64,000 nt of DNA from Ceratodon purpureus (Eukaryota > Streptophyta > Bryopsida > Pseudoditrichales > Ditrichaceae). The notes below the pieces were generated by a model that did not search any database, was not told the DNA's origin, and was given only the letters and a program-made list of their open reading frames with translations. The stretch covers positions 86,432,526 through 86,496,525 of the forward strand of contig CM026426.1 of NCBI GenBank assembly GCA_014871385.1, given 5' to 3'. Of this stretch, positions 32 to 61,200 are shown piece after piece; position 1 is the first letter of the stretch; each line of letters begins with the position of its first letter. The position numbers were made by a program, and so were the translations under genes.

Positions 32-3000
32 TAATCAATGTTTCCGACCTTTCGGATTCATTTGATCAGCATTACTGTACTTGCGATGTCTCAATCTCTG
101 TAGGTTTTGGTACTGTACATTCTGAGATCCATTCTCCACAGTACATGCCTACATCTCCAGTTTACATGCCTACGTCCCCTCTCTATGAGCCTACTTCCCC
201 TCGCTACATGCCCACTTCTCCTATACAGGATTCACCACCGATGTCTGCACCCTCTCCATCCTCGCCTATTAGAGTGAGGCGGCCAAGCCATGTTGTTTTT
301 GCCCTTCCGGCAATTTTACCATGCCCTGTTTAACAAACGAGGCGTTTCTGGAGGAGGCGCCGTCATTGGAACCGTAGACAGTCTAGGGAGTATTATAGGC
401 GATCATCACGTCGATAGAGTCTTCAGGCTTAAATGATATTGAACTTGTTGTATTCGAAATATCATTATGAAGTGATTTCATATTTCTCTATTTTGCAAGA
501 CTTTCTAAGTTTTGATTCCAACATTAATTTACACACCGTTTTACAGGTTACTCAAACACAAGAAGCGTTGGAAAAACCATCTTGTCCGGAAGACTTGAAG
601 ACAGCTTTAGAAGGCGAATTGCAGCACCGTAAACAATACAAGCTGGACTCCATTGGCGTCATCAACAAACTCAGGATTCAACCTGAAAGGAAGTCCCGCT
701 TAATGGTGCCCCTGTGCAGGATGATTTCAATGGCCAAGGTTAGACCAGTGGGCGAAATGGGGGTACAGCACTTGGAGCGGGAGTTTGTTAAGGGGTATAG
801 AGATGGGGACTGCGTCATGTACATATTCATATACAACAGTGAAGAGCAAACAAAGGATTTTACGGCGGAGACCATAGCTGGTTGGAGCTCTTTATAGAGG
901 GCCGCGAGTGATCGTTTTGATGATGAGATCGGTGGAGACGAGGAGTGGATGCAATTCACCAACAAGATGTTCTTTGTCTGGGAAGGTAACCACCGCCTCG
1001 CTGCCTGGCTCCGACATATAAACAAGCACCATGCGGACGACCCAGCATGGCACATCTCAGTACATTGCATTATACTAGACCCCCGCGGCCATGTGGGCAA
1101 GTTGCTTCACGCCATGCACGACATTAACTGGTAAATATCTCCGTTGTTATCCTTCTTTGTGCACACTCAAACCTTTGAGCTACTGCATTTTATTCCTCTA
1201 ATATTCAACTTTGTTTTTCAGGTCAACTGAGAATGACCACGTCAAGAGTAATCTTCTAGCAAAGTTGTTTCGAATCCGCTCATTCGGGATGATGAAACTG
1301 GAGGATTTTAAAGACCTCCTGAGCCCTGAAGAATATGATGCATGTCTGAAACACAAGCCACCTAATCCGTCGTGGTTTCCCTTGACAACCAAGATTTTTA
1401 TAGCATTTCTATACCGTGTAAGTGTTGCCGCCATCCATTCTTCGCTTCTGCAACTTGGATAAATTCCAATATCCTGATAAATACTTTTGTTTCAACAGCG
1501 GGAAATCGCACAAGCCTCCGACGACGCAGCGAGAGCCTACTTTGAGAAGACGCCTGAGGAGGATCAAACTGCAAATGCAGTTTGGGATGTCATGAATGAC
1601 GCATCTGAGAAAATGGTCGAATCCATCAAGAAGAAGGACTTCACCAAGTACTTGGCCATTGCGAATCCCAAGAATGGTGACGACTTCCTCAATGAGGTGA
1701 CACACTCACTAATGCCATTTACAATAGTTCGTATGTCAACCTGATTTCCTTACTTTGTAGCGTCTAAAATAATCACTCTTCATGCAGATCAATCGACATT
1801 ACAGTGACTTCTCGAAACCGGAGATGACCCCCGGAGAAAATTGTCCCAGCAGCAGTTGAGCCCAAATACAAGGCTCGCTGGTTGAGGTGGTGGAACTCAT
1901 CCCCAAATTCCAGACTATCTTACAGATTCCTTCCGCTCGAATTCAAGGAAACCGACCTCGACCCTTGGTTGAACAAGGCTTCATTTTGGGCTGGGGTATA
2001 TTTTTTTCATTTATTATTCAAATATCATTATAGTGTTTATTTTTCTTAACTTCTACCTCATTGCTAATATATTCTCGTCTATATTATAATTGGAGGAAGC
2101 TGTCATCAATGAAGTCGAGGACATATGCAAAGCGGAGAACATCATCATCAATTGGAAGGATTTTCCTGATGTTCAAGAACCGGGGCCTTATGTTGAGAGT
2201 TCACGTATTCTTTTATGGGACAAGGCCTTCCCGACGTTCCTTGGAAAGAAGGCCGAGAAGGTTTATGACAAGAAGTCTAACTTCGCTAAATTCCCTGGAA
2301 CCGCTGAGGTTGTCAAGCGGGTTACTTACTGGTACGTATGTTATCTTCATCACATTCGTTTTCCGCAATAATGGGCTGTATGTATTTCAGTGATGCTAAC
2401 CTTCTTTAAAATTGTTTATTTAGGTACTTTAAGAGAGAGCTTGTTCCAAAGGGCGTCCTCACCGTCCAGGAGCTGCCTAAGTACTTTAGTGCTTAGACGT
2501 CGAGAACCTCGGACCAATGTATCTATTCTCCACAGCAGTTGAAAAGGTACAAATCTCCTCACTTGCTTGAGGGATGCTGGTACCTTGATTGTTTTCGCGG
2601 TTTCACTATTGACTCTGAGGTGGACATCAAGACTTTACATGATGCCGGTGAGGTAGTGGCCGAAGAAACGGTGGATGCTACTGAAGATGACGGAGGCCCT
2701 GAAGACCAATCATCGGCTCCTCCACCGAAGAAAGGTAGAGCTCGGCAACTGAAATCTTTGCGATCACATTCACAAGCTTCACAGCAAACTGGTGCGGCGT
2801 CTTCCGCTCCAGACCAGACGGCACCAGAGCCCTCTACAGGTAATGTGGTTACGAAGCCTTCTTCAACTTCTTCACCGGGTCCTTCGGAGATCAGTGCTTC
2901 GGAGATCACCAGAGGTCTCCTTGAGCAGAGGAAGGCCAAACTATATCCTCAAACAACTTCTTCCGCTGGAGCTTCGATTTCCACACATGTTTCCGTCTTC

Positions 3001-4514
3001 AACCCATCTGTGGATTCCATGTTACGGCGAAATAAGAGACAGGAGAGAAAAGGTGGCGACCCGGATTGGATCAAGACTCAAGACTTCATTCGCAAGGTAT
3101 GTTCCGATATTTTGACATTTAATGGATTCTGCCACCTCTACTCGCTATGTAGTTACTAACTCTGCTTTCTTGTTTCCTCAAGTTTGGAGCAGGCCGCGAA
3201 AACAGAGTTCCGGACCGGTGCAAACAAGAGGACCATCTGGGAGTCGACTTGATCATTGCCGACATCCCTGAGAATCTTCCTGTCCCATCCGTTTCCGTTC
3301 CCCCCACGAGTATTCCGCCTTGGAACTCTCGCGAGAAGGATTATATATTCGACATCTTCCGTTTTGTAGATAATTACCTGCAGAAAGATGGTGCCATCTG
3401 GCTCATCTACAACACTGATGAGAAGCTGGCTAAGGATATCAAGGAAGAAGCTGATGGTGGTGACTACGTGCTTTTCAAGGACTGGTGGGGCGTCAATGTC
3501 CTCGGCCTCACTTCTCCTACGAACCCCGAGAACTTGGTAATTTCCCTAAACATACCCTTCCCTTTACTTATTGATAACCCTTCCGATTAATTTTACTCAC
3601 TAGTTTTGCTTGACTGCAGACTATGCAGTTTTGGATTCGCGTCTACGTTCGTAGTGGCAGTACTTTCTCCTTCCAAACGAAGAAATCCGAGCTGATACAT
3701 GGGCTCCTCAACATTACCGAGAGTGATGCCATTTTCAACTTCACCGATCTGGAATCGCAGCTCATGAATGGGGGGGTGCCGTGGAGAGGCCCAAGGGAGA
3801 AATCCCCTGAGATGATGCAGGGCATAATTGAGGAGCTGTCAAAGCCCGGCAACATAGTTCTTGATTGGAATGCTGGGACAGGTAACTCTTCTTACATATC
3901 TCTGCTTTATTATTCCTCTCGTTTTTCCCATAGTTTCTCATTTCTTTGTTTCTCTCCGAGTTTCAGGGGCCTCCATCAAGGCTTCCCAGGCTATTGGTCG
4001 TCACATTCTCGCTTTTGAGGAGGACGAAGCCATATTCAACGCCCTACTCAAACCGTGCATGGCTAGACCATCCGCCATGGGCCCTCCTAAACATCCTAGG
4101 CCGGCAGCAGTAGACGAAGCCCCTCCAAAGAGACCAAGACCTGATAAGTGGTGTAAGTCTTCTATTCTTTGTTCAAATTATCCAAGTATTACTTCTCTTT
4201 GCAGCTCTACGTACTCGATCTAACCACAATCGGTTCTCTATTGCAGAGTAGTTTCAGCAACACCGCCACGTGGGCCAAGAGCAGTGTCCACTCCATCGTG
4301 GCGTCTTCATTCCAGCCCGATTTAGCCTTTCATACTTCCGGACTACGCAGAGGACTTAGCAAAGGCATTTCAATCTGGAGCCCTCACATATGTTCCTAGT
4401 CGGCCAACTACTTTTGATCCCAGGGCTCTTCTATTCGTCGATGACGAGGCGGTAGAAGGAGATTCAGAGTCATCTAGTTCTGAGAGTGGAAGTAGCGATT
4501 TTAGCATGTTGTGA
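32..4514 (+). CDS. ParB-like / beta-class DNA methyltransferase-like gene, copy A (5' incomplete, decayed)
   Basis: I recognise domains but no named gene. Exons fit GT-AG borders at about 32-409, 547-1130, 1222-1417, 1499-1696, 1788-1995, 2088-2331, 2424-3096, 3183-3536, 3620-3881, 3967-4152 and 4247-4514. In order they encode four CTD-like heptads, a region with [10 protein letters not shown] (975-1009) resembling the G-x-HR-x-x-A core of ParB nucleases, a Pro/Ser-rich linker with basic patches (about 2670-3000), DLIIADIPE (near 3247) and, later, VLDWNAGTG (3856-3881 plus the next exon). Catalytic motif IV before SAM-binding motif I is the order of beta-class amino-methyltransferases (CcrM, PvuII type). 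The usual D/S-PP-Y/W motif is changed to DIPE, so catalysis is doubtful. Copy B at 47180-51718 has the same exon plan. A carries in-frame stops (for example TAG at 895-897 and 2494-2496, where B reads on) and a lost acceptor near 2088, so this copy is probably a pseudogene. Domain calls are inference from motifs; the exon plan is seen. Confidence 0.7.
142..225 (+). repeat. four RNA polymerase II CTD-like heptads
   Basis: Four uninterrupted 21-nt units encode [21 protein letters not shown] and YMPTSPI. The spacing and the Y-x-P-T-S-P-x pattern are those of the Pol II CTD heptad YSPTSPS, with Met or Glu at position 2. Copy B keeps three units at 51609-51547. The units lie in the first visible exon of the methyltransferase-like gene, just after an acceptor-like AG at 30-31. 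Confidence 0.85.
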
Positions 4515-4805: not shown

Positions 4806-5920
4806 TGACTTGGTGTACATCTTGGTTTCTGCTACTCCATTATTGTACACGAACTCTGAAATATTCCACAAACATTTAAGACCATTTCTTTTAGTTGGTC
4901 TCGAGTTGTTTTATTCCTAGAATCCTCTATATTATCTAAAACCATCATGCTGGAATACTCGTATCTAGATCCAATAAGGGACCAAATCTAAAGGAATGTA
5001 TTCGAACACCCCGCTAGACTTCACAGTACTAATCCTTCGGAGGATATACAGTCCAACTCTTGTCGATATCAAACCAGCAAGTTTCGCCATCCGATATGAT
5101 CACTTCGGGCAGATGAACAACTGGATTCTCATCGACGTTCGATGGCAATGGATACGGGATTAGGGACAACTCCATAATACGGAGAAGCTCATTGGTACAA
5201 AGCACTGTCCAACGCCTTTCACCTTCACCAACATGGAGGCTTCCGATGTGCGTAAACGGTGGCAGGTCCATGCCTCGTTCTCTGGCGCGCTCCACCTCCA
5301 ACAGCCAGGGCCGCAGCTCCTGATAACTCGCCGGTGCCTTTGGGGGCAAACCTACAGCCGCTCTCGTCCCCCTCGATCTCGCATTACACACCTTCGGCAT
5401 CGCGCAACACACTAAATTGTTGTAGTCTTAAAACGTTCCAGGCAAGCTTGCAAATTGACCCCCCCGAACTCTTATGCTATCTTCGCATACAGCACAGAAT
5501 GCCAAGGACTGTGTCACTATCCTAATACGCCACCTAGAAACAAGCTAAAGAAACCAAGAGTGACCTCCTTCTCTGGAACCCAGCTTACCAAGTGCTGTTC
5601 CTTGATGAAAATCTCCTACTTGTATCACTCAAATGAAGATGCTTCGCTGCCTAGGAAGAGAGAGTAATCTTCGATGAAGACAAGGACTCTAATAAGGTAT
5701 ATTTTGGTTTCAGCAGTTTAGATATTTTACACGAATTTTGAAATATTCCAGGAAGTTTTCAAACCTTGCCTCCTTTATGTTCTGTGAAAGTTGTTTTTTT
5801 CCTTGTGCATTTGCATAATCCTATGAAAGAATTATTTGTTTGATCTAAAACTTAACGCCTGATCATTGTATCTTGCCTAAACCCATGACAAATCTAAAGG
5901 ATTGTATGCATGACGTCATC
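4806..5920. repeat. direct duplication of a ~200-bp non-coding block around a small reverse gene
   Basis: The block at about 4806-5010 (it contains the phrase ending in GAAATATTCCA) recurs in a diverged form at about 5690-5920. In copy B there is a single counterpart (about 45970-46200 on the other strand). In A the two blocks bracket the reverse ORF at 5029-5412, as if a cassette had been inserted with, or by, duplication of its flank. Confidence 0.6.
5029..5412 (-). CDS. unrecognised 127-aa ORF, convergent with copy A
   Basis: A single open frame on the opposite strand, tail to tail with the methyltransferase-like gene. It has no signal peptide, membrane segment or domain I can name. The middle is acidic and rich in Arg/Glu, and the C-terminus is Trp/Asp-rich (CWFDIDKSWTVYPPKD). 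It occupies the position that the F-box-like gene (46285-46848) holds in copy B, but the two proteins do not look alike. It may be the last exon of a longer gene, because no TATA-like or other start context is clear. It could also be a chance ORF, but its length and its place between repeated blocks argue for a real, perhaps broken, gene. Confidence 0.4.
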   Translation of the reverse strand: MCCAMPKVCNARSRGTRAAVGLPPKAPASYQELRPWLLEVERARERGMDLPPFTHIGSLHVGEGERRWTVLCTNELLRIMELSLIPYPLPSNVDENPVVHLPEVIISDGETCWFDIDKSWTVYPPKD

Positions 5921-6171
5921 ATGACATCAGCCCTAATTTGTATCTTAGAGAACAAACGTAATAAATTCTTACCAGAGGTAACCCTGATTTCCACGGTAAT
6001 ATACTCTTTTCCTAAAAAAAGTGTCAAAATCAAGCCTTAATTTAGTAATTTTCCACGGTAAAAGGGTCTACTTTGCTTTTGAAAATTTTGCTAATTGTCA
6101 ATTCTGTGCTCTCCATTTTGTGCTCTCCGCTCTCCGCTCTACGCTCTCCGCTCACATACGAACTTTCCCCA
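5905..6171 (+). repeat. shared non-coding tail of copy A (homologous to 45697-45970)
   Basis: This stretch contains GCATGACGTCATCATGACAT, a purine/pyrimidine-poor middle, then iterated CTCCGCT units (6119-6155) and a final CTTTCCCC. The same sequence in the same order is read on the minus strand at 45970-45697 next to copy B. Similarity stops abruptly after CCCC in both, which marks a shared boundary. The palindromic TGACGTCA is a bZIP/CRE-type core but is not shown to be functional. Confidence 0.8.
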
Positions 6172-12599: not shown

Positions 12600-14076
12600 A
12601 TGGGAGAAGTTGGGAAGGAGAGTTACTTTCACGTGAAGGTCGGGTTGCCAAATGCAGGTTTGGACTCCGCCTTCGACTGCAACCATGTCAGCAATGAGGA
12701 GCTGAGGTCCATATTCGGAGAGAAGGTTCCTGGCAAGGGATATCTCTTCGAAGGAGCGAAATCAGGAAAGGTCAAGGCGAGAGTGTTGGGGCTGTACCCA
12801 GCGATCTCTCAAATTCCCGAGCTTTCTGTTGGTTTGTTCCTCCCGGAGAGCTTCGCGAAAGCGGTCGTTTCGGAGGTTTTCCATCGCTACCTAGTGGACT
12901 GGGTAAAGTATGCGGAGGATCGCTAGAGGGGTAAGAAAATCAAGAGCGGAAACGACCTCACAGTCCTGTTTTGCACCCCTGACCGGAATGCCACCTACAT
13001 CGAAATCCTCTCTAAGGGCTTGGAAGCCGAGATTGCGGACGCTGAGTAGGACTGCGAGACGGCCGTGGCAGCCCATAGTGTTGCACACAAACGGGCTGCG
13101 CTTCTGAGGCAAACGGCCAAGCCACCGCTCACGGATATGGAGAGGTACAAGCTTCAGATCAAGCTGAGGTACATTGAGGAGACTGTAGACTCCTCGGAGG
13201 CAAAACTGCAGAAGTGAGGGGCGATGAAGTCCATCGTCGAAGGCTCTGCTGATGAAACATTCCTGAGGTTCTTCGAGGACGAAATCCACGGCGAAGAGCA
13301 GAGAATCTTGGAGGCTGGGGAGGAAGTGCAACGTATGAAGGAGGATTTAACTGAAACGTTGGCGAGGGATCTTGCGGGGGCCATTGAGGATGAGAAATGC
13401 CTGTCTTCTGCAAAGCACGATGCAAAGGACAAGGTGAAGGGCTTGAAAGAAAATCTCCGCCAGCTTCAGATATGGTCGTCTACATCAATGTTCCGTGCCC
13501 CCAGTCCTCGAATCGCAGCGCCCACGCAGAACATCGACTCAATTACCCTTACAGTGCAAGGTTGCTCCCTTTGTAACCAAGGGTTTCCGGCGATGGACCT
13601 CGTGACTGCTTCCTGCGCTTGCCCATACCACCCGTTGTGCGCTGCAGTGCGGACTTCGCTTGGTCAAAACTACGCAAGATGCGGGGAGCATTTCGCAGAG
13701 AACTGGTTGAACAACTTCGGCTTTTTCAAGTGCAAAGGTACGTCAATGTCGCGCATGTGCATTGATTTCTAGTATTGCTGAATCCGTTGTGGAACCGAAT
13801 ATAACATACTTCTGACTTATGCGTCTGTATCTTGCATCTGATAAGCAATTTTTATTGAAATTCGTTTTTGACATGGAGTTGTGCATTAGAGTGTCCATTG
13901 CGCTGGTTCGAAACTGATATATGAGTTTTGCTACAACAGCGCGAGTGGAGATTGGCAGTGCGCCGGATACCGAAGAGGGAGAAAAGAAGCGCAAGCATTT
14001 GAACTTGGACATTGGAGGGTGGAATCATGCGCGCAAGGACAAGTCGACCTCTACATGCCGCCGGAAATCAAAATAG
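12600..14076 (+). pseudogene. coiled-coil / RING-like zinc-binding protein gene, decayed
   Basis: The frame starts at ATG 12600. The N-terminal ~110 residues form a compact domain (GLPNAGLDSAFDCN, YLFEGAKSGKVKARVLGLYP) that I do not recognise. A charged coiled coil follows (about 13070-13470), then a Cys/His cluster (13559-13735): CSLCNQ, SCACPYHPLC and RCGEHF, with spacing like a RING or RING-variant E3 domain. A GT-AG intron at 13738-13939 leads to a short basic last exon ending in TAG at 14074-14076. In-frame stops (12924, 13046, 13215) mark decay. If the RING reading is right, the ancestor may have been a ubiquitin ligase (inference). Confidence 0.5.
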
Positions 14077-29888: not shown

Positions 29889-32800
29889 ATGACGATGAAT
29901 AACGAGCGGAAGGTGATTGAGTTGGAGCAGGGATGGAACTTCATGCAGAAGGGGATCACCAAGCTAAAGAATCTGTTGGAGGGAGTGCCGGAGCAGCACT
30001 TCAGCTCCGAGGAATACATGTTGCTTTATACGTATCCTGATGTTTCGCAATTGATGGTTTTTTGGGTGGGGGGGGGGGGGGGGGGGGGGGGGGGACGGGT
30101 GGTGGTGATGGGGTTAGGTTTTTGGGGAATTGGATGGTGATGGGGATCAGTGTTGGTAGGGGAATGGGGTGTAATCGGTTTTTGCATGTGGTGGTTGTTA
30201 ATCGTGGTTCGAGTTTCTCCTTAATGTTTTTTTCTAATGCTCCAGAACAATTTACAACATGTGTACGCAGAAGCCTCCGCAGGATTATTCGCAACAACTA
30301 TATGACCGATATAGGGAGTCGTTCGAGGAGTATATCAACTCCAAGGTGAAGCATTCAAACCATTTGTTTTCTCTTCTTCTGGGGGGTGATCAATGAAATT
30401 GGGTGAATCGTTGTTTGCTACAGTGGCTTACTGGAAGGGAGATACGAGGTCCCTCGTTTTGAAATGGGAATGTATTCATCCGGATCTGCAGTTCAGGGTG
30501 ATTGCTGTCGGTGTCAGGGCCTTTTAGAGAGTAGGTTTTCTTGTTTTTATTAATGACAGGGATTAGTTTATTTAAGAGCTAATCTGGTGGTTCTCGTGGT
30601 GTTGTAATGATCTTATTATCTAGGTATTACCTGCTCTTAGGGAGAAACATGAGGAATTCATGCTGAAGGAGCTTGTCAAGAGATGGGATAATCACAAGAT
30701 TATGGTCCGGTGGTTGTCCCGGTTTTTTAATTACCTGGATCGGTATTTCATCGCAAGGCGGTCACTTCCAGCGCTGAGCGAAGTTGGACTGATGTGTTTC
30801 CGGGATCTGGTATGCTGTCTGTAATGAGTTGTATGTGGAACAGTCTGTAATTCATTGCGCTCTGTTGTTTGTAGGCATGTCGTTGCAGTATCGTGCTTCA
30901 GTGTGGACTTAGTGTACTTTTAGTCACGGTTATTTTTTTCGTATTTTTTTTCTTTTCTGTTTTTGCTACACGCAGGTCTACGCAGAGATGAAAGTGAACG
31001 TGAAGGATGCAGTGATTGCGTTGGTTGACCGTGAACGCGAAGGCGAGCAGATAGATCGGGCGCTTCTGAAGAACGTCCTGGGTATCTTCGTGGAGATTGG
31101 AATGGGTAATATGGACGCATACGAGACCGACTTTGAGACGTTCCTGCTTGGAGATACAGCTGCTTATTACAGGAGAAAGTCCTCTGCTTGGATTCAAGAG
31201 GATTCTTGTCCAGACTACATGCTCAAGGCCGAAGAATGTTTGAAGAGAGAGAAGGAGAGGGTTGGGCACTACTTGCATGCTAGCAGTGAGCAGAAATTGT
31301 TGGAGAAAGTCCAGCATGAGCTACTGACCCAATATGAGACACAATTATTGGAGAAGGAGCATTCAGGCTGCCACACCCTGTTAAGAGATGGCAAGGTCGA
31401 CGATCTCTCAAGAATGTATCGGCTTTTCTGTCGGATTCCCAAGGGTTTGGAACCTGTGGCAGCCATTTTAAGGCAGGTATGTCATCTTCAGCTCTCAACT
31501 CAATCACCACCATTTGGAATTTTTAACTCCCGAGGTTCTTCAAAGTGATTTCATTCTGAAGGTAAGAAGCTCTCTAGTATCTGGACGGGATGCAAGAGTT
31601 CTGAGTTTTCTACTGTAGTGCTAATTTTCGTGTTGGGCATTTGGTGCTTGCATGTTAAACAGTTTTTTGTGTTCTTTATTCACATATTCAACATGAACGC
31701 TGAAATGGCTGCCTTGTGCTGTTTTATCTGCAGCACGTCACAGACGAGGGAACTGCGCTTGTTAAGCAAGCGGAAGATGCAGCTAGTACTAAAAAGGTAT
31801 ATCTCCATTTCTCTATTTGGAAGCTTATGCAGTATGTTGCATTTTTTCTGTGCCATGTATTGAGGGATGCACTAATTTTTCACCTGTTAATTGTGTTCTG
31901 TCGGATTTTGTATAGGCTGAGAAGAAAGACACTGTTGGAGTGCCAGAGCAGGTAACACTTTTTGGACCGGTTTTCCTTTTAAATTGCTGCTTCACACGTT
32001 ATCTTGCTGGTTTTACGCTTGGTGGATGTTGTTTGTAAAGCAAATCTTGAAAGAATATGTTGATGAACTGAAGTAACAGTGGTTGACATTGAAAGGTTTC
32101 GGCAGTTTTCGTATTACGTTGTATTAGGTACTGCCTCATTTGAATTAGAGAGGATATGAAGGATCTCACGCATCTTTGGTAGCCTTCTACAGGCCTTTGT
32201 GCGCAAGGTTATTGAACTTCACGATATGTACTTACAATATGTCAGCGAGTGCTTTGTAAATCATTCTCTTTTCCACAAGGTAACTAACCTTACGTTCTTG
32301 ACATGGATTGCAAGTTTTCATGTTCCGGAGCATGCAGTATTCTAAAGCTCTTCCTTGGAGGATTTTTCTTGTCCTGTTTATGGATGGTCTTGTCATTTTA
32401 GGAGAAGTTTCTATGATGGCTTTTTGTGTTGTACGCAGGCTTTGAAAGAAGCTTTTGAAGTCTTTTGCAATAAGGGTGTTGCAGGGAGCACAAGTGCTGA
32501 GCTCCTAGCCACGTTCTGTGATAATTTGTTGAAAAAGGGGGGAAGCGAAAAGCTCAGTGATGAAGCAATTGAGGATACGCTTGAAAAGGTATCGGTTTTG
32601 TATCTATTACTCAAAAGCTTTGTTGTTTACTTCATATCGAAGTCATTCAACAAGAAAGAAACAACGCCTTTAATATAGTGCCTTGTTAATGGCCCTTGAT
32701 ATTTAACAAGGATTTTGATATGTCTGGTGAGTAAATTCGATTCAGGAGGCTTGTGTGCTGTGACATTTTCTTATTATGTTTTATGGGAAAGTGCAGGTGG

Positions 32801-45185: not shown

Positions 45186-45690
45186 CTAGTAAGGGAGAGC
45201 ATAAAAGATGCTTGCCTTTTTCACACCATGTTGTTTTACACGATCCCTCTCGCCGTCTTCTACACCTCCGTTTCTAAGGTACTGTGCCATGTCCCTTCCT
45301 TCCTGAAGCAATTGAGTTCCACTTCTTTGCTCAAGCCTAGTTTGGTTCTCTCCTTCTCCGTTGAACTCTGACCTAGCTCGACGGAATCTATGGTTCAAGG
45401 GCAGAAATCTCCTTGCACCAACATAAATCATCTTGTTGCAATTTTGTGAGTGCTCAGCGTCAGTTTCGCTCCCACATATTGGATAGGCGAAATATTCTTG
45501 AACAATATGTCCAGCAATCAATCCTAGTGTTGGAAAGTCTGAGACCGTCCACATCAAAATTGCTATCATCGTAAATGAACGTTCAGGCACAGGCTTGAAC
45601 ATATTTATAGCTGACACTCCATGCCATAGACACAGCAAATCAGTCACCAACGGCTCCAAAAAAATATTGATGTTATCTAAAGTAGGAGCA
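45186..45690 (-). mobile_element. CACTA tnp2 transposase fragment following copy B
   Basis: The frame 45659-45186 reads FTMIAILMWTVSDFPTLGLI, then AGHIVQEYFAYPICGSETDA, then a GARRFLPLNHRFRRARSEF block. These match the tnp2 landmarks WTINDFPAYG, the ACP-C motif and GHRRFLP-HKWR-F. Only the N-terminal to central part is present; LDVMHIEKN and later parts are missing. It begins within about 40 bp of the shared tail boundary of copy B (45697), whereas in copy A the corresponding tnp2 sequence starts some 9 kb after the boundary. Confidence 0.7.
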
Positions 45691-45696
45691 CGGGGT

Positions 45697-45970
45697 CAGG
45701 GGAAAGTTTGTATGTGAGCGGAGAGCGGAGAGCACAGAATGGAGAGCACAGAATTGACAATTAGCCAAATTATCAAAAGCAAAGTAGACCCTATAACCGT
45801 GGAAAGTTACTAAAATAAGGCATGATTTTGTTACTTATTTTAGTAAAGGAGTATAATTCCGTGGAATTCAGAGTTATCTCTCATAAGAATTTCTTACGTT
45901 TGTTTTTTGAGGTACAAATTAGGGCTGATGTCATGATGACGTCATGCATACACTCCTTTAGATTTGGTCC
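45697..45970 (-). repeat. shared non-coding tail of copy B (homologous to 5905-6171)
   Basis: On the minus strand it reads from the GACGTCATCATGACATCAGC region to the CTCCGCT iterations and terminal CTTTCCCC. The rest of the ~200-bp upstream block (46000-46200) also matches A. The identical end point in A and B makes this a real boundary. Confidence 0.8.
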
Positions 45971-46284
45971 CTTATTGGATCTAAATACGACTATTCCTGC
46001 ATGATGTTTTTAAATCACAACAATAAAGATTGAATAGATAATATAGATAATTATAAGGAAAAATAAAACTCGAAACAAGCAAGAAGAAATGGTCTTAAAA
46101 CTTCGTGGAATATTTCAGAGTTCGTGTACAATAATGGAGTTGCTGAAACCAAGATGTATACCAAGTCAGACTGCATGTCTTGGTCGAAGAATTCTCCGTC
46201 TTTAGATAAGACCATTCCTAGCTTAAGTGTCAAGCAACGATCTATATAAACCTTGGCAGACGTCCTTGAAGTTGTATTAGCTCA

Positions 46285-46848
46285 ATGGTTTCTGTAGAAC
46301 TTAAGCTTGTACTTGCTAGGGAGTTGTTTGAAGGTATGGGCGATTCATTTGAGGTGGTTGCCTGTGAAACGATTTTACAGGATTTGCTTAAGCGGATGGC
46401 GGATGGGCCTAACCTCTGGGATCATATAGGTAGTAGTGCCACGCAGGGTTGGACTCCTCCGACTGTAATCACGTTTGAAGACGTCGAGAACGCTCGTGTT
46501 GTGTCAAAGAGGTGGAACCGTGAGATTGACAACAGTCCTGAATACGCATGCCTTCGGCTAGCTAGGTGGGATTACTTTTCGTACAAGGGTCGCCATTGGA
46601 GTCCGAAGGACGAATACGAAGTTAATTGGTTCAACATCAACTGGAGTGTTTTTAGGAGTTGTTGGAAACTTGCAACTCCAATTTACAACGAGAGGTTAGA
46701 GACAGCGTCCCTTGGAGAACTTAGTTGCGTTGAGTTAGATCACTTGAGGACATTGCTATGGGCAAATGGGAATGAGGTCTTGGATGTGCCGGAAGGAGAG
46801 AAAATTTCTCCGAGAGATGGTATCTGGATCTCTCCCAAGAATAAGTAA
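46285..46848 (+). CDS. F-box-like small protein, convergent with copy B
   Basis: An uninterrupted 187-aa frame. Residues ~28-85 (ETILQDLLKRM...FEDVENARVVSKRWNREIDN) resemble the second half of an F-box, where V-S-K-R-W-N and a following Leu-rich turn are common. The C-terminal half (WDYFSYKGRHWSPKDEYEVN) has no repeat such as LRR or Kelch. If it is an F-box protein it would bind SKP1 and recruit targets to CUL1 complexes; the match is partial and the function is inferred. It lies tail to tail with the methyltransferase-like gene inside the shared block. Copy A holds an unrelated ORF in the equivalent place. Open frame and intact start suggest it could be expressed. Confidence 0.45.
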   Translation: MVSVELKLVLARELFEGMGDSFEVVACETILQDLLKRMADGPNLWDHIGSSATQGWTPPTVITFEDVENARVVSKRWNREIDNSPEYACLRLARWDYFSYKGRHWSPKDEYEVNWFNINWSVFRSCWKLATPIYNERLETASLGELSCVELDHLRTLLWANGNEVLDVPEGEKISPRDGIWISPKNK

Positions 46849-51718: not shown

Positions 51719-54700
51719 ACTGTGATTGGAGAATTGACTCAATACAAAGGTGCGTTGGAAGCTTTCGAGGCCTGCTGCTTCGAATTGAGGAAGCTCGGTC
51801 GTCTGTGCGAAGCACTGGTTCAACATTGAGCCTTCGATGGTATGTTTGCAGGGGAATAGGGATACGCTGAGCAACATCTGGGCTGGTTGACTGCTTGACG
51901 GGGAATGCATCTTGTGGCTCTCCACTGATCTGCTCATGCAAGGGGCGAGCATGTGAATAAGCTGTGAGATCACCGGTAGCGAGTTCACCTGAGCGAAGAG
52001 GAAGGTGTAGAGTTGAACCAAGTGGAGTCGATGTAGACGGAGGGCCAGCCGCACATCGAGATGGTGAGGTGTTCAGATCCATTGGACCTGTGCTTGGCGA
52101 TGGTGTCGAAGAAACAGCTGCACGATCCTGAGCATGAGTGGCGGTGATATCATCAAGAAATGACCAATCAGGTTGAAGGCTTGGACACGGAGCTGCTTAG
52201 GCGCCCTTGATGGATTGGTCACAGGGAAACACCGTTTCGTCGAAATGGATATCTTTTTAAATTATGATGCGGCGACTTGAACGATGATAATTGCGGAAGC
52301 CTCGTGACGTAGCGTCATATCCCAAAAAAATGCATTTGGTGGCACGTGGTGCCCACTTCTTCTGATCTGGAGAAGTGTTGAGTACAAAACTCCTACATCC
52401 AAAAGTGCGAAAGTGTGCCACTTAAGGAACATGGCCAGTAAGCTTCTCGAAAGGTGTCATTCCGTTGTTAGCTTGAGTTGATGTCTTGTTAACTATGTAA
52501 GTAGCTGTTGACACAGCCTCAGTCCATAGATGAGCCGGAATGTGACTGGCAAATACCATACACCGAGCCTTGTTAAGTAAAGTGCGGTTCTTTCTCTCAG
52601 AAATCCCATTCTGATGAGGAGTGTAAGTCTGAGAGAGTTGACGTAGGATCCCAGCTTCGTCACAAAATCTCACGAATTCATGAGAGATGTATTCTCCACC
52701 ATTATCTGACCTTATTGCCTTGAGTCGATAACTACTCTGTAGCTCCATCATTTGCTTGAAATGCTTGAACTTGGTAAGTGTATCAGACTTGCGTTTGAGA
52801 AAATATACCCAAGTATACCTGCTGAAGTCATCGGTGATGGTTAGAAGATACTGGGAGCCTGAAAGTGACGCCACTAGGGGACCACAAAGGTCTGAATGGA
52901 CGAGTTCAAGAGGGTAGCTTGTGCGTGCGACTAAAAATGAAGGATTGAGTGGCGCTGCTGGCCGAGGTTGGGTCCTTCGAGGCTTGGGAGTCCTTGCTTG
53001 CTTTCCTTGAGAGCAAGCTGAGCATGAAGGACCGGCTGATGAGAGAGCTGGAAGTCCCGTGACACGATGTGTTGAGTGCATATATGAGAGAACTTTGTAA
53101 CTGGAGTGGCCAAAATGACCATGCCACAGTATTGTTGAACGCTTTCCCGGGGTTCCTTCAGCAAGATTGATCAACAAATTTGGTGGACTGAAGCGATACA
53201 AACCATTCCTTCTGTCTCGCTGGCCAGTGGCGATAATCTGATGTTCATCTGGGGTGGAGCAGTTTCGAAGTACACAGAAACTATCTGAGTCAAATAGAAT
53301 CTTGGGTTTTCCTTGTCCATCAGTAAAAGAGCCGACAGAGAAGAGGTTTTTAGTCACTCTAGGCACATACAGAACTTCATCAAGCTTTATTGATCCTGAG
53401 GAAGTGAGAAACTCCATCTTCCCCTTGCCAGCAACATTGAGTGATTCACCTCCAGCGGTACTAATTCTGGAGTGACGTTCATCTTCTAAATCGCTAAGAA
53501 GATTCGTGGAGCCTGTCACATGTTTCGAGGCTCCACTGTCTAAGAACCACATCTTGCTATCATCTGCTAAGTTTACCTCTGTGAAGTGTGCAGCTAGTTC
53601 TGTCTCGCTCTCAAAGAACTCATCGTCTTCGCTACCAGGGCCGCTGCTGAAATTGTCCACTAAGTTAACCGATGCCTTTGCTTCACGACTCGCCTTCTGA
53701 TTCTTAATCTCAGCCGCCAGTATCGGACAATTGTGCATCCAATGATCGGTTGAACCACACAAGTGACATTCACCTGAGTCACTCTTTTTCTTAGGTTGGC
53801 CTCCATCGCCGCCAGAGCCGCTCCTTCGACCACTTGAGTTGGTCGGTCTGCAATTACCGGTGCCAGAGTACTTGGCAAGAAGTGTCTCATGATCGGTCTG
53901 CTTGGTGTCACCCCTTATCTCTTGCCTAATCTCATTCTGCAGCAATGTCACTGTGAGTTCAGAGAAATTCGGCAAAGCAGGAAGATACATAAGAGTATAC
54001 ACAAGTCCCTCGTAGCTCCTTGGCAGCGCCAACAAAACATGTTCTACTATCTCACAATCACGAAGCACTTCTCTGATACTGGCAAGATCATTGATGAGTG
54101 TCTTGACGTGCTCGAGGAACTCTGACATGGACCTCCCTTCCTCCATTCTCAGGTTGCTAAACTTTCGCCGTAGCATCAGCTTCCGTGAGTTAGTGCCGCT
54201 AGCGTAGAGGTCTTTGAGAACAGTCCAGCATTGAGCTGGATCGGTGATGCTCGCTATGTGGGGTATCACGTTGTCTGAGACAGAGAGCGCAATGATTGTG
54301 AGGGCCTTGTTCTTCAGTGCCTATAGGGCAGCAACATCGGTAGGGTTTGTCGGTGCTACAGTCCCGGGAGGGGATCGACTATCCGCCATGCATCGTCTCG
54401 GTTGAGCAGGTTCTTCATTTTGAAGCTCCATACGGAATAATTGGTAGTACATCAAGCTTCGAGGAATCTGTCATGAGTGACTGGTTGGTGGCCATGCTGA
54501 TACTTAACTTTGGACTGATCTAAACTGATCTGCAACTTAGACTGGCTATTTGGCACCTCGATTCCCCCTAGGACACTGATCAACGACTCTACATTCTTGA
54601 TCGATAGTTCCAAAACAGGGACTAACAGCTGGTAGCCACAATAAATCCTTGCTCTAATACCATGTGGGAGGACGGTGACTCTAACTTAAACCAAAAAATT

Positions 54701-58286: not shown

Positions 58287-61200
58287 ATGGCAGCAATTCA
58301 CCTCGGCGATGTCGAGAACGTCAACTGGAGCGATGAAGAGCTGCAACCGAATGCAAGCAAGGAGTGCTCCGACGATGACTACAGTAGCGGGAGCGAGGAT
58401 GAGAACGTCGGAGACGAGATTGGCCCCCTCAATTACACTCCACTGGAGTTACCTCACGGCCATCAGAGGAGGACCGCAAGGGCCTGCCCACAGTCGGGGA
58501 GCACCGTGCCACAACATCGGAGTCTTCGGTCTCAGGCTACCTGCGCAAGGGGAACAGAGAGGCGCGAGGCTGGCTCGCCCTCCCCTGCATTTCAACGTGT
58601 GCGTAGCCGGTCGGGGGCAGAGGTATGCACATTCACCAATCGCACCCCACCGCAGTCGACTAGTAGAGTGCGTTCCGCGGCTGAAAAGACTGCGCCTGCA
58701 CAGTGTGAGAACCGCATGGGTGGGACGAGGCCTGTAGCTCAGAGGAGGCGAATTTGCAAAAATGGCAACTCGAGCGATGATCAGCTCCGTCGTGCCATTG
58801 CAGGAGTGGACGATGGACTCAGTATGCACAAGGCTTCGGAGCAGAACTGCATACCACTCAGTACGCTCAGGGACTGGTTACAGGGGCGTACAAGAAGCCG
58901 CATTAGAGGCAGGAAGGGTGTCCTCACGGCTGACAAAGAGTCACAACTCGTGGAGTACCTGATAAAGATGTGTGACGCTAGATATGGTCTGTCACCAAAT
59001 GGATTGAAGATGAAGGTCTACGAGATCACGAAGAACACGTGCACTCCCTTTCGGGACGGGATTCCTGGAGGCGGATGGATGTGCTGGTTTAGAATTCGGC
59101 ACCCTGAACTTTCAATTTGAGCTGCTCAAACACTTGAGACAGCAAGAGCGAAATCAATGTGTCTAGAGAATGTGGCGACACTATACAACAATTTACAGGA
59201 ACTGTACAACATGCACCAGTATCCACCTCATCGCATTTGGAATTGCGATGAGTCCGGAGCCCAAGAAGGTGCGTTCTAAACTTGTGATCATTTGACATTG
59301 CACTTGCATTACCTATGCAACATGAACTGAAATAAAGAACAGAGCAGCTAGTGGTGCCCAAGCCAGTGACCCGGGGTGCCCGAGCCAGTGACCTAGGGTG
59401 CCCGAGCCATTGACCTGGGATGCCCGAGCCAGTGACCTACCTTCGAAACTTACCTTAATTGCTTTGCACAGGAAGGAGCGGAGGCGCCATGGTCATTGCA
59501 AAGGTTGGTGCGAGGCGTGTGCACACAGTTGTTCCTAATCAGAGGGAATGGCTATCAGTTCTTGTATGCATTAATGTAGCTGGATTTGCCATCCCTTCGT
59601 TCTATATTTTCAGAGGGAAAAGATTTGGACAGAATTACATCAAAAATTGTGAGGACGGTGCTACTATGGCAATGCAGCCTCGGGCCTGGATGACAACTTA
59701 CCTGTTCAGCGCGTGGATCTCTCACTTCATCACGGCAATTCGAAAGTTTGATGAAATCTCACCGGACAGCCGTCACCATCTGATCCTCGATGGCCATAAT
59801 AGCCATGTCACTTTAGAAGTGGCAAAGACAACAACAGATGTTGGGTTGGATTTACTAACCCTGCCCTCTCATACTTCGCATGCCTTGCAGCCTCTGGACG
59901 TGGGAGTATTCAAGCCGTTCAAGCAAAGCTTTCGTCAGTATCGGGATTACTGGATGTCTAGACACATAGATGTTCCAGCGACTAAAGTCACTCTAGCGCA
60001 CTGGTTTAGCCTGGCTTTAAGAAAAGCACTGTCTGATCGAAATATACAAAGTGGGTTTCGGAAAGCTGGAATCTATCCAATCAATCGACAAGCAGCTGAA
60101 CATTTTTTTGCAACAGCAAGTGTGTATGTGAACTGTGATCCACAGGGAACAGAAAATATACCAAGTGAAGCCGGCGAAGGGAGAGAGAACGCTGCCGGAG
60201 ATCTCGAAGGCGGCTCCTCTCGGTCTGTAGGTTCGGAGGAGCAGTGCCGAGCATCACGGCCAAGGGAGCTCTTACATGCAGCACGGTCATCGGAGCAATC
60301 GCCAGCAGAGGAGGCAGGTGATGCGGCGCAGGCTACATGTCACGATGTCTCAGCAGCAGACGGGTCGGGGGCAGTCGCCGAAGGGGAGACCGAGGTGGAT
60401 TTAGAGCGCGAGTTTGCGGAGGCTCCCAACGCCACAACATCTCACTACTTCGTGGGACTCGAGCACTGTGACGTTGCTGAAGATGAGGACATCGCGAGTC
60501 TTGATCCCGCCAATGCAGAACCACAGTCTACAACTTAGTTTCTGCAGTTGCCCACCATCACAGCTCGGACATCTGGGAGACGCAAAGATCCAATAATTGA
60601 GTTCTCCAAGTCCATCATAATCACCTCTCATCAGTATATGGAGGCAGCTGCAGCAGTGAAGGAATCTAAAGAGCGAGACAAAAAAGAAAAAGAACAAGCA
60701 CGAATCGCAAGAGAGGAAAATAAAAAAAGAAAAGCGCAGCAGCGGGAGGAGAGCAGGCTCGCAAAGCTGCTGAGCGGGCGGAGGCATTGCGGCAGAAGGA
60801 CGAGCGCGCTATCCACAGAGCGGAGGAGCAGGCTAGGAAAGCTGCCGAGAAGGAAGCTCTGCAACGTGCGAAAGCTGCGCGGGCCTATGAAGTCCAATGT
60901 GCGAAGCTGGCGAAAGCTGCAGATCGGGCTCGCTTAGCTACTGAACGTAGCATTACTCGTAGAGCAAGGGCAACAAAGACTGCGGAAGGACGGCAAACCA
61001 AATTGAGTCACGAGACTGCAACAAATCTCGGAGATCTACGCAGTGGAGACGAAACATTCGTACCTCCATATTTCAGCCAAGTGCACCACGTCCCACTGTA
61101 CGTACCCGAAGCAACACTCCCACCTTTCACACAACATCAGCTACCAGGCCAGTTATTCTTCCCCTCCTCTTCAAATGAGCCTCAATTTTCACAGTCTAAC

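Follow-up and report, generated by a model that had tools for sequence, protein, structure and literature searches.

Two decayed copies of a ParB-like and methyltransferase-fold gene in the moss Ceratodon purpureus as a candidate accessory gene of giant, probably Mutator-like transposons

Some plant Mutator-like elements are known to encode accessory proteins (PMC6446971). VANC proteins, for example, bind tandem repeats in the noncoding DNA of the VANDAL elements that encode them and cause silent marks to be lost (PMC10398659; see also PMC6446971 and PMC13317346). Bacterial-type amino-methyltransferases are likewise known in eukaryotes, including a liverwort (PMC8885841). This study concerns a 64,000-nt stretch of the moss Ceratodon purpureus (contig CM026426.1, positions 86,432,526-86,496,525; C6 of an assembly of 362.5 Mb in 151 contigs), hereafter the window, in which a GNHR-containing, ParB-like segment and a methyltransferase fold are encoded together. 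An earlier note, made from the letters of this DNA, had described a plant gene with this architecture and knew of no plant family like it; in agreement, we found no description of the two kinds of protein combined, or of a fusion with a ParB-like segment, in the open-licence literature, a scope that leaves out most subscription papers and bioRxiv. We propose, with a probability of roughly 60%, that the two decayed copies in the window represent an accessory gene belonging to a family of giant, probably Mutator-like transposons with terminal inverted repeats (TIRs), and that the encoded protein acts on the DNA of the element itself. The genome measures 360 Mb, with U and V chromosomes of more than 100 Mb each (PMC8000587); as C6 is 110.5 Mb long, the window presumably lies on a sex chromosome.

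With regard to gene anatomy, copy 1 comprises ten exons in one chain (547-4514, + strand), leading from the GNHR segment (encoded at 973-1008, +) to a permuted N6_N4 methyltransferase domain, with DLIIADIPE encoded at 3246-3272 (+) and VLDWNAGTG spanning a splice at about 3857-3883 (+). Copy 2 is inverted relative to copy 1 (51199-47180, - strand) and carries NIPE at the motif IV position; the exon lengths of the two copies are nearly equal and the introns measure 81-108 bp. The exon borders are a model set by eye from splice signals and from the comparison of both copies, the last acceptor having been picked so that the frame holds. Under this model, GT donors are present at nine of nine introns in either copy and AG acceptors at eight of nine in copy 1 and nine of nine in copy 2, in line with the spliceosomal introns that the earlier note had seen. 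The features are as follows.

547-1130 (+): copy 1 exon 1, ParB-like segment, with a stop at 895-897
1222-1417, 1499-1696, 1788-1995 and 2090-2331 (+): copy 1 exons 2-5, conserved middle part, with a frameshift in exon 4 and the acceptor lost before exon 5
2424-3096 (+): copy 1 exon 6, middle part and Ser/Pro-rich linker, with a TAG at 2494-2496
3183-3536 (+): copy 1 exon 7, N-terminal part of the methyltransferase, with DLIIADIPE at the motif IV position
3620-3881 (+): copy 1 exon 8, methyltransferase, RGPREKS ... VLDWNAGTG (motif I)
3967-4152 (+): copy 1 exon 9, remainder of the motif I region
4249-4514 (+): copy 1 exon 10, C-terminal tail
51199-50616, 50521-50326, 50233-50036, 49945-49730 and 49635-49394 (-): copy 2 exons 1-5
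49304-48632, 48543-48190, 48105-47835, 47745-47560 and 47451-47180 (-): copy 2 exons 6-10

Both window copies are pseudogenes. The stop at 895-897 in copy 1 is, like that at 2494-2496, a TAG, the missing acceptor is the AG before 2090, and the frameshift arises from an exon 4 that is 8 bases shorter than its counterpart in copy 2; copy 2 shows six in-frame stops when read across the splices and, these aside, a single frame across all nine of them. The gene of the earlier note is encoded in a plant genome, as stated there, and a single intact gene is ruled out by the stops, the frameshift and the lost acceptor. Two unrelated genes run together are disfavoured, because relatives show the same order and the exons of copy 2, stops aside, share one reading frame.

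The assignment of the second half to the methyltransferase family is solid by profile and motif order, and enzyme activity of the family can be predicted at most. PF01555 matched copy 1 at E=8.1e-8 (32.9 bits, above the curated cut-off of 26.7) and copy 2 at E=4.5e-4 (20.7 bits, below it), and a two-row profile of the window copies matched CcrM at E=5e-4, in line with the N6_N4 methyltransferase of the earlier note. All 11 family members submitted matched PF01555 at E<=1e-3 (best 6.1e-12), and an eleven-member profile matched the C-terminal part of DpnA (E=3.9e-9) and nearly the whole of CcrM (E=2.2e-7). The beta-class order that had been claimed was also found: in the two window copies and their relatives alike, the motif IV region (exon 7) precedes motif I (exons 8/9). 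The methyltransferase part of the window gene matches phage methyltransferase families; tblastn matches in phages were weak, with a best E of 1e-3 among the matches listed (25 of 296 records), and no close relative appeared in scans of viral contigs or of bacterial and archaeal genomes. One alphaproteobacterial contig (L050, 416-571) showed a 35% match with the methyltransferase query over 52 residues.

The gene belongs to a dispersed family. A six-frame profile search placed PF01555 matches at 32 or more sites in the genome, a lower bound because 150 of 773 candidates were scored. Nineteen of the 32 places, on 12 contigs, were fetched, and all 19 carry further exons of the gene in the same order, so that its multicopy nature in this plant is evident. 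The ParB-like exon stands in the same order relative to the methyltransferase in 16 of these loci, and in the other three (L012, L016 and L017) the fetched stretch stops short of the GNHR exon; the union of both segments in one gene, as read in the earlier note, is thus recurrent. Counted from matched stretches rather than from full gene models, 12 of the 19 loci are free of stops, seven contain one or two (L010, L012, L013, L020, L021, L025 and L026), and seven show all eight query exons and no stop (L009, L018, L019, L022, L023, L024 and L027). Three subfamilies can be distinguished: A, comprising the window copies, B, comprising 17 loci, and C, comprising L013 and L025.

The window copies, now dead, diverged under purifying selection. 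Their comparison over 1045 codon pairs, with 9 gapped pairs and 10 pairs containing stops left out, gave a nonsynonymous divergence (dN) of 0.18, a synonymous divergence (dS) of 0.67 and a dN/dS of 0.27 (bootstrap 0.23-0.32), and their introns are 58% identical. By exon, dN/dS was 0.12-0.20 in exons 1, 3, 4 and 5 and 0.37-0.59 in exons 6-10, exon 2 being saturated, and dS, which exceeds 1 in exons 1 and 3, fell to 0.2-0.3 in exons 9-10. Gene conversion or exchange of the 3' part could possibly underlie this drop, for which we have no firm account. Among relatives, where the pairs consist of related, non-independent copies, the median dN/dS of the ParB-like exon was 0.053, based on the 19 pairs, out of 120 from 16 copies, that passed the filter. 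The medians for query-set exons 2, 3 and 5 were 0.081 (34 pairs), 0.072 (14 pairs) and 0.043 (20 pairs), and that for the motif I exon, with 4 of 15 pairs from 6 copies, was 0.23; the motif IV exon yielded zero usable pairs. The ParB-like and middle exons are consequently the most constrained, and the motif I exon is less so.

In two relatives, the gene is cargo of transposon units. These units, a (on C3) and b (on C1), consist of colinear long pieces that are 88-95% identical from one common sharp edge to the end of the fetched DNA, and they belong to a sister subfamily of the window copies. Unit b spans 26,787 bp, ends in inverted repeats of 43 bp with a 93% match and is flanked by GTGTTGCCC on either side. 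Both of its end sequences also occur in unit a, which is flanked by CTACTTGAC on either side about 26.8 kb apart, with one extra base at one end. The ends of both units start with GGGGAA or GAGGGA and continue into short repeats of (A/G)TGAGC. The flanking duplications are perfect 9-bp copies in both units tested and differ between a and b. As the ends are shared and the duplications differ, we conclude that the gene is contained in two insertions of a single type of unit; a plant gene that became multicopy by itself is not supported.

Target duplications of about 9 bp are a mark of Mutator-like elements, and terminal inverted repeats are typical of them, some members being without. A transposase-like gene comes first in the units, followed by the ParB-like/methyltransferase gene and then by a coiled-coil/RING-like gene in convergent orientation. 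The transposase-like gene consists of two large open reading frames (ORFs) of 837 and 507 aa, of which the second matches SWIM weakly (E=0.62). Zinc-finger-like and DDE-like stretches were read by eye in the transposase-like gene, pieces of which also adjoin the ParB-like/methyltransferase gene in L034 and L037. The element is a giant TIR transposon that is probably Mutator-like, the qualification being due to the failure of Pfam to recognise the transposase.

The window itself shows a sharp terminus downstream of both copies, at 6170 and 45699, which reads GGGGAAAGTT(C/T)GTATGTGAGCGGAGAGC and, as in units a and b, starts with GGGGAA and contains short tandem repeats.

6081-6170 (+): element terminus by copy 1, reading inward GGGGAAAGTTCGTATGTGAGCGGAGAGC..., a sharp end in common with copy 2
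45699-45773 (-): element terminus of copy 2, reading inward on the + strand GGGGAAAGTTTGTATGTGAGCGGAGAGC...

The simplest reading is that the window copies derive from elements of this design that have since decayed, of which the window alone is no proof. Between the gene and the terminus, each copy has a convergent ORF (5029-5427, -, and 46270-46848, +), the similarity of the two being judged by eye; that of copy 2 has a sub-threshold F-box match (E=0.072). A homologue of the coiled-coil/RING-like gene of the units is encoded at 12606-13745 (+; 30% over 383 aa, E=4e-47) and perhaps stems from another decayed element, as it lies beyond the terminus of copy 1. A further piece of that gene was seen at L032 5784-5963.

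A ParB-type domain in exon 1 is likely, if unproven. The motif VW.GNH...AW is invariant in 15 of 15 family members, with the R kept in 14 of them, and 3 of 13 members match DndB (best E=0.015), which we take to be grouped with ParB-like folds. A motif-driven scan returned one phage contig, L040, with a 38-residue match to the ParB-like part; its protein belongs to DUF6551 (E=2e-16), and several related phage proteins carry a ParB-like annotation. A profile-profile comparison with a phage ParB-like set that included L040, itself picked by motif, gave a probability of 84%, or 82% with a longer moss alignment, and 13% once L040 was left out. The score without L040, which extends over only 18 columns, was 29.1, compared with a best of 24.1 in 60 column shuffles, 19.1 for a reversed alignment and 17.7 for an unrelated one. 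L040 was the sole viral find for this part, and a plasmid scan returned no close relative. The scans of both halves of the gene neither show nor exclude the ancestry in phages or bacteria suggested by the earlier note.

We favour an accessory DNA-binding protein because the ParB-like and middle exons are constrained, motif IV is altered and a transposase-like gene accompanies the gene. In such a scheme, the ParB-like segment would bind the DNA of the element, for example the (A/G)TGAGC or GAGAGC tandem repeats at its ends. The methyltransferase-fold domain would act there, either by writing an amino-methyl mark or, given the altered catalytic motif, as a non-catalytic binding part. Either mode could help the element to evade host silencing or mark its ends for transposition, in a manner resembling VANC and VANDAL. 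DNA binding, its target, the activity and the anti-silencing role are all inferred here.

Several results weigh against this interpretation. At the profile level the ParB assignment gained no significant match: none of 13 members matched PF02195 with the ParB-like exon, and ParB gave no significant match in Pfam, PHROGs or PDB searches, the best PDB hit of the exon being a ribosomal protein (E=0.016). An AlphaFold model of the exon from two sequences was unusable, with a predicted local distance difference test (pLDDT) score of 37.5. For the window copies, a second terminus was found neither in the window nor in the 10 kb upstream, and no target duplication was found, two flank matches with one mismatch each standing beside no terminus-like sequence; the transposase ORFs of the units had no match within the window. 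In unit a, 1.4 kb near one end was unread. Pfam detected no MULE (Mutator-like element) transposase domain in the 836/861-aa ORF, and the superfamily call rests on the 9-bp duplications, the ends and the motifs read by eye. Finally, ATGAGC is clustered at the ends of unit b, with only 19 occurrences in 26.8 kb and a shuffled mean of 10.

The alternative that survives best, though we hold it somewhat short of even odds, is that of a dead methyltransferase fold kept solely as a DNA- or S-adenosylmethionine-binding module. None of the 20 copies read (17 of subfamily B, L013 and both window copies) has the usual PP form at the motif IV position, which is never DPPY, and the catalytic (S/D/N)PP(Y/F/W), in the forms listed in PMC8885841, is absent from every one of them, while other exons are strongly constrained. 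Subfamily B reads DQPF at 11, DTPF at 5 and DQPY at 1 of its 17 loci, the window copies of subfamily A read DIPE and NIPE, and L013 of subfamily C reads DVPE. Against a dead fold, the acidic and aromatic residues of the motif are retained in 17 of 17 subfamily-B copies.

The same retention is what lends some credit to an active DNA amino-methyltransferase, in which subfamily B would write N4-methylcytosine (4mC) or N6-methyladenine (6mA) on the element or the host genome, as the bdelloid and Marchantia enzymes do; we regard this as tentative and somewhat less probable than a dead fold. In all 17 readable copies the D comes first, the P third and the aromatic residue last. Since changing the first and last residues of SPPY abolishes the activity of bdelloid N4CMT (PMC8885841), and subfamily B keeps D and an aromatic residue at those positions, catalysis is possible in this subfamily. 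One subfamily-B copy also matches PF01555 nearly over its full length (2-218 of 221, E=2e-9), and the motif I exon is under purifying selection. However, none of these 17 subfamily-B copies has the first P, the position being Q or T. In subfamily A and in L013, the single copy of subfamily C that was read, E stands in place of the aromatic residue; the segment preceding motif I is RGP(H/R)EK where CcrM has HPTQKP; and constraint is weaker on the motif I exon than on the ParB-like and middle exons. The more specific idea of a self-marking transposon, whose own ParB-guided, prokaryote-type amino-methyltransferase would methylate the element ends and thereby protect or license the element, seems to us unlikely.

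A host gene family spread by segmental duplication, with transposon ends occurring coincidentally, is very improbable. It would agree with the strong purifying selection, and copies c to f vary in the extent of their mutual match, the search for duplications on both sides having covered units a and b and the window copies; yet two 26.8-kb units on different contigs have the same ends and different perfect 9-bp duplications. An endogenised virus remnant, which the large size and prokaryote-like domains might recall, is the least probable of all, as no viral hallmark was seen in the ORFs of units a and b (Pfam having covered the gene itself and five ORF stretches from two of the other genes), no close relative of the methyltransferase was found in viral contigs and the ParB-like part has one motif-found match of 38 residues.

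Upstream of both window copies lie conserved YMPTSP/YEPTSP repeats that resemble the C-terminal domain (CTD) of RNA polymerase II (PF05001, E=0.0045, below the cut-off). This segment could be an upstream exon of the gene or a separate gene.

32-333 (+): CTD-like repeat segment (YMPTSP units) upstream of copy 1, with its own stop at 331-333
51738-51442 (-): CTD-like repeat segment of copy 2, adjoined by a truncated copia retroelement

The copia element, with gag and integrase domains, lies at 52425-54320 (-) and adjoins copy 2 near 51740. Elsewhere in the window we noted pieces of a tnp2 (Transposase_21) gene (45189-45695, -) and of a DDE_1 transposase (59459-60535, +), together with a cullin exon (30913-31545, +).

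If the accessory-gene interpretation is correct, a land-plant DNA transposon of about 27 kb bears a bacterial-type DNA-modification gene under strong selection. The dispersal of such genes in the genome would then be explained, and it would become testable whether amino-methyl marks or methyltransferase folds serve transposons, and not hosts alone, in the arms race over silencing.

In comparison with known systems, the phage ParB-like/DUF6551 proteins (L040 and L042-L049) share a YV.(D/N)G(Q/N)H motif with the moss gene, from which they differ in that similarity past the motif is non-significant. CcrM and DpnA (PDB 6pbd and 5hfj) are the best profile matches among solved structures, and the motif order is that of CcrM; unlike them, the moss gene has altered motif IV and motif I positions and an added ParB-like segment. 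The Marchantia 4mC methyltransferase of bacterial origin (Walker et al., cited in PMC8885841) is likewise a bacterial-type amino-methyltransferase in a bryophyte, whereas that source describes it as lacking any further N- or C-terminal domain and as acting genome-wide. Bdelloid N4CMT is also a permuted bacterial-type N6_N4 methyltransferase that is fused to another domain in a eukaryote; it has a catalytic SPPY, a chromodomain, demonstrated activity and a role in transposon silencing (PMC8885841), whereas the moss gene has no PP pair, carries a ParB-like segment and is transposon-borne. Pack-MULEs and gene-carrying Mutator-like elements (PMC6431247) resemble the units as Mutator-type plant elements that carry other genes; Pack-MULEs carry gene fragments and were first reported at up to 7 kb, in contrast to units of 26.8 kb with a gene under strong selection. 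VANDAL elements of Arabidopsis are described as non-TIR, and VANC is not described as a ParB or methyltransferase protein in the parts of the cited papers covered. Like the units, they are plant DNA transposons with a gene for an accessory protein beside the transposase gene and with tandem repeats, those targeted by VANC being noncoding and those of the units standing at the ends, so that VANC, which is no relative of the moss gene, may serve as its functional precedent.

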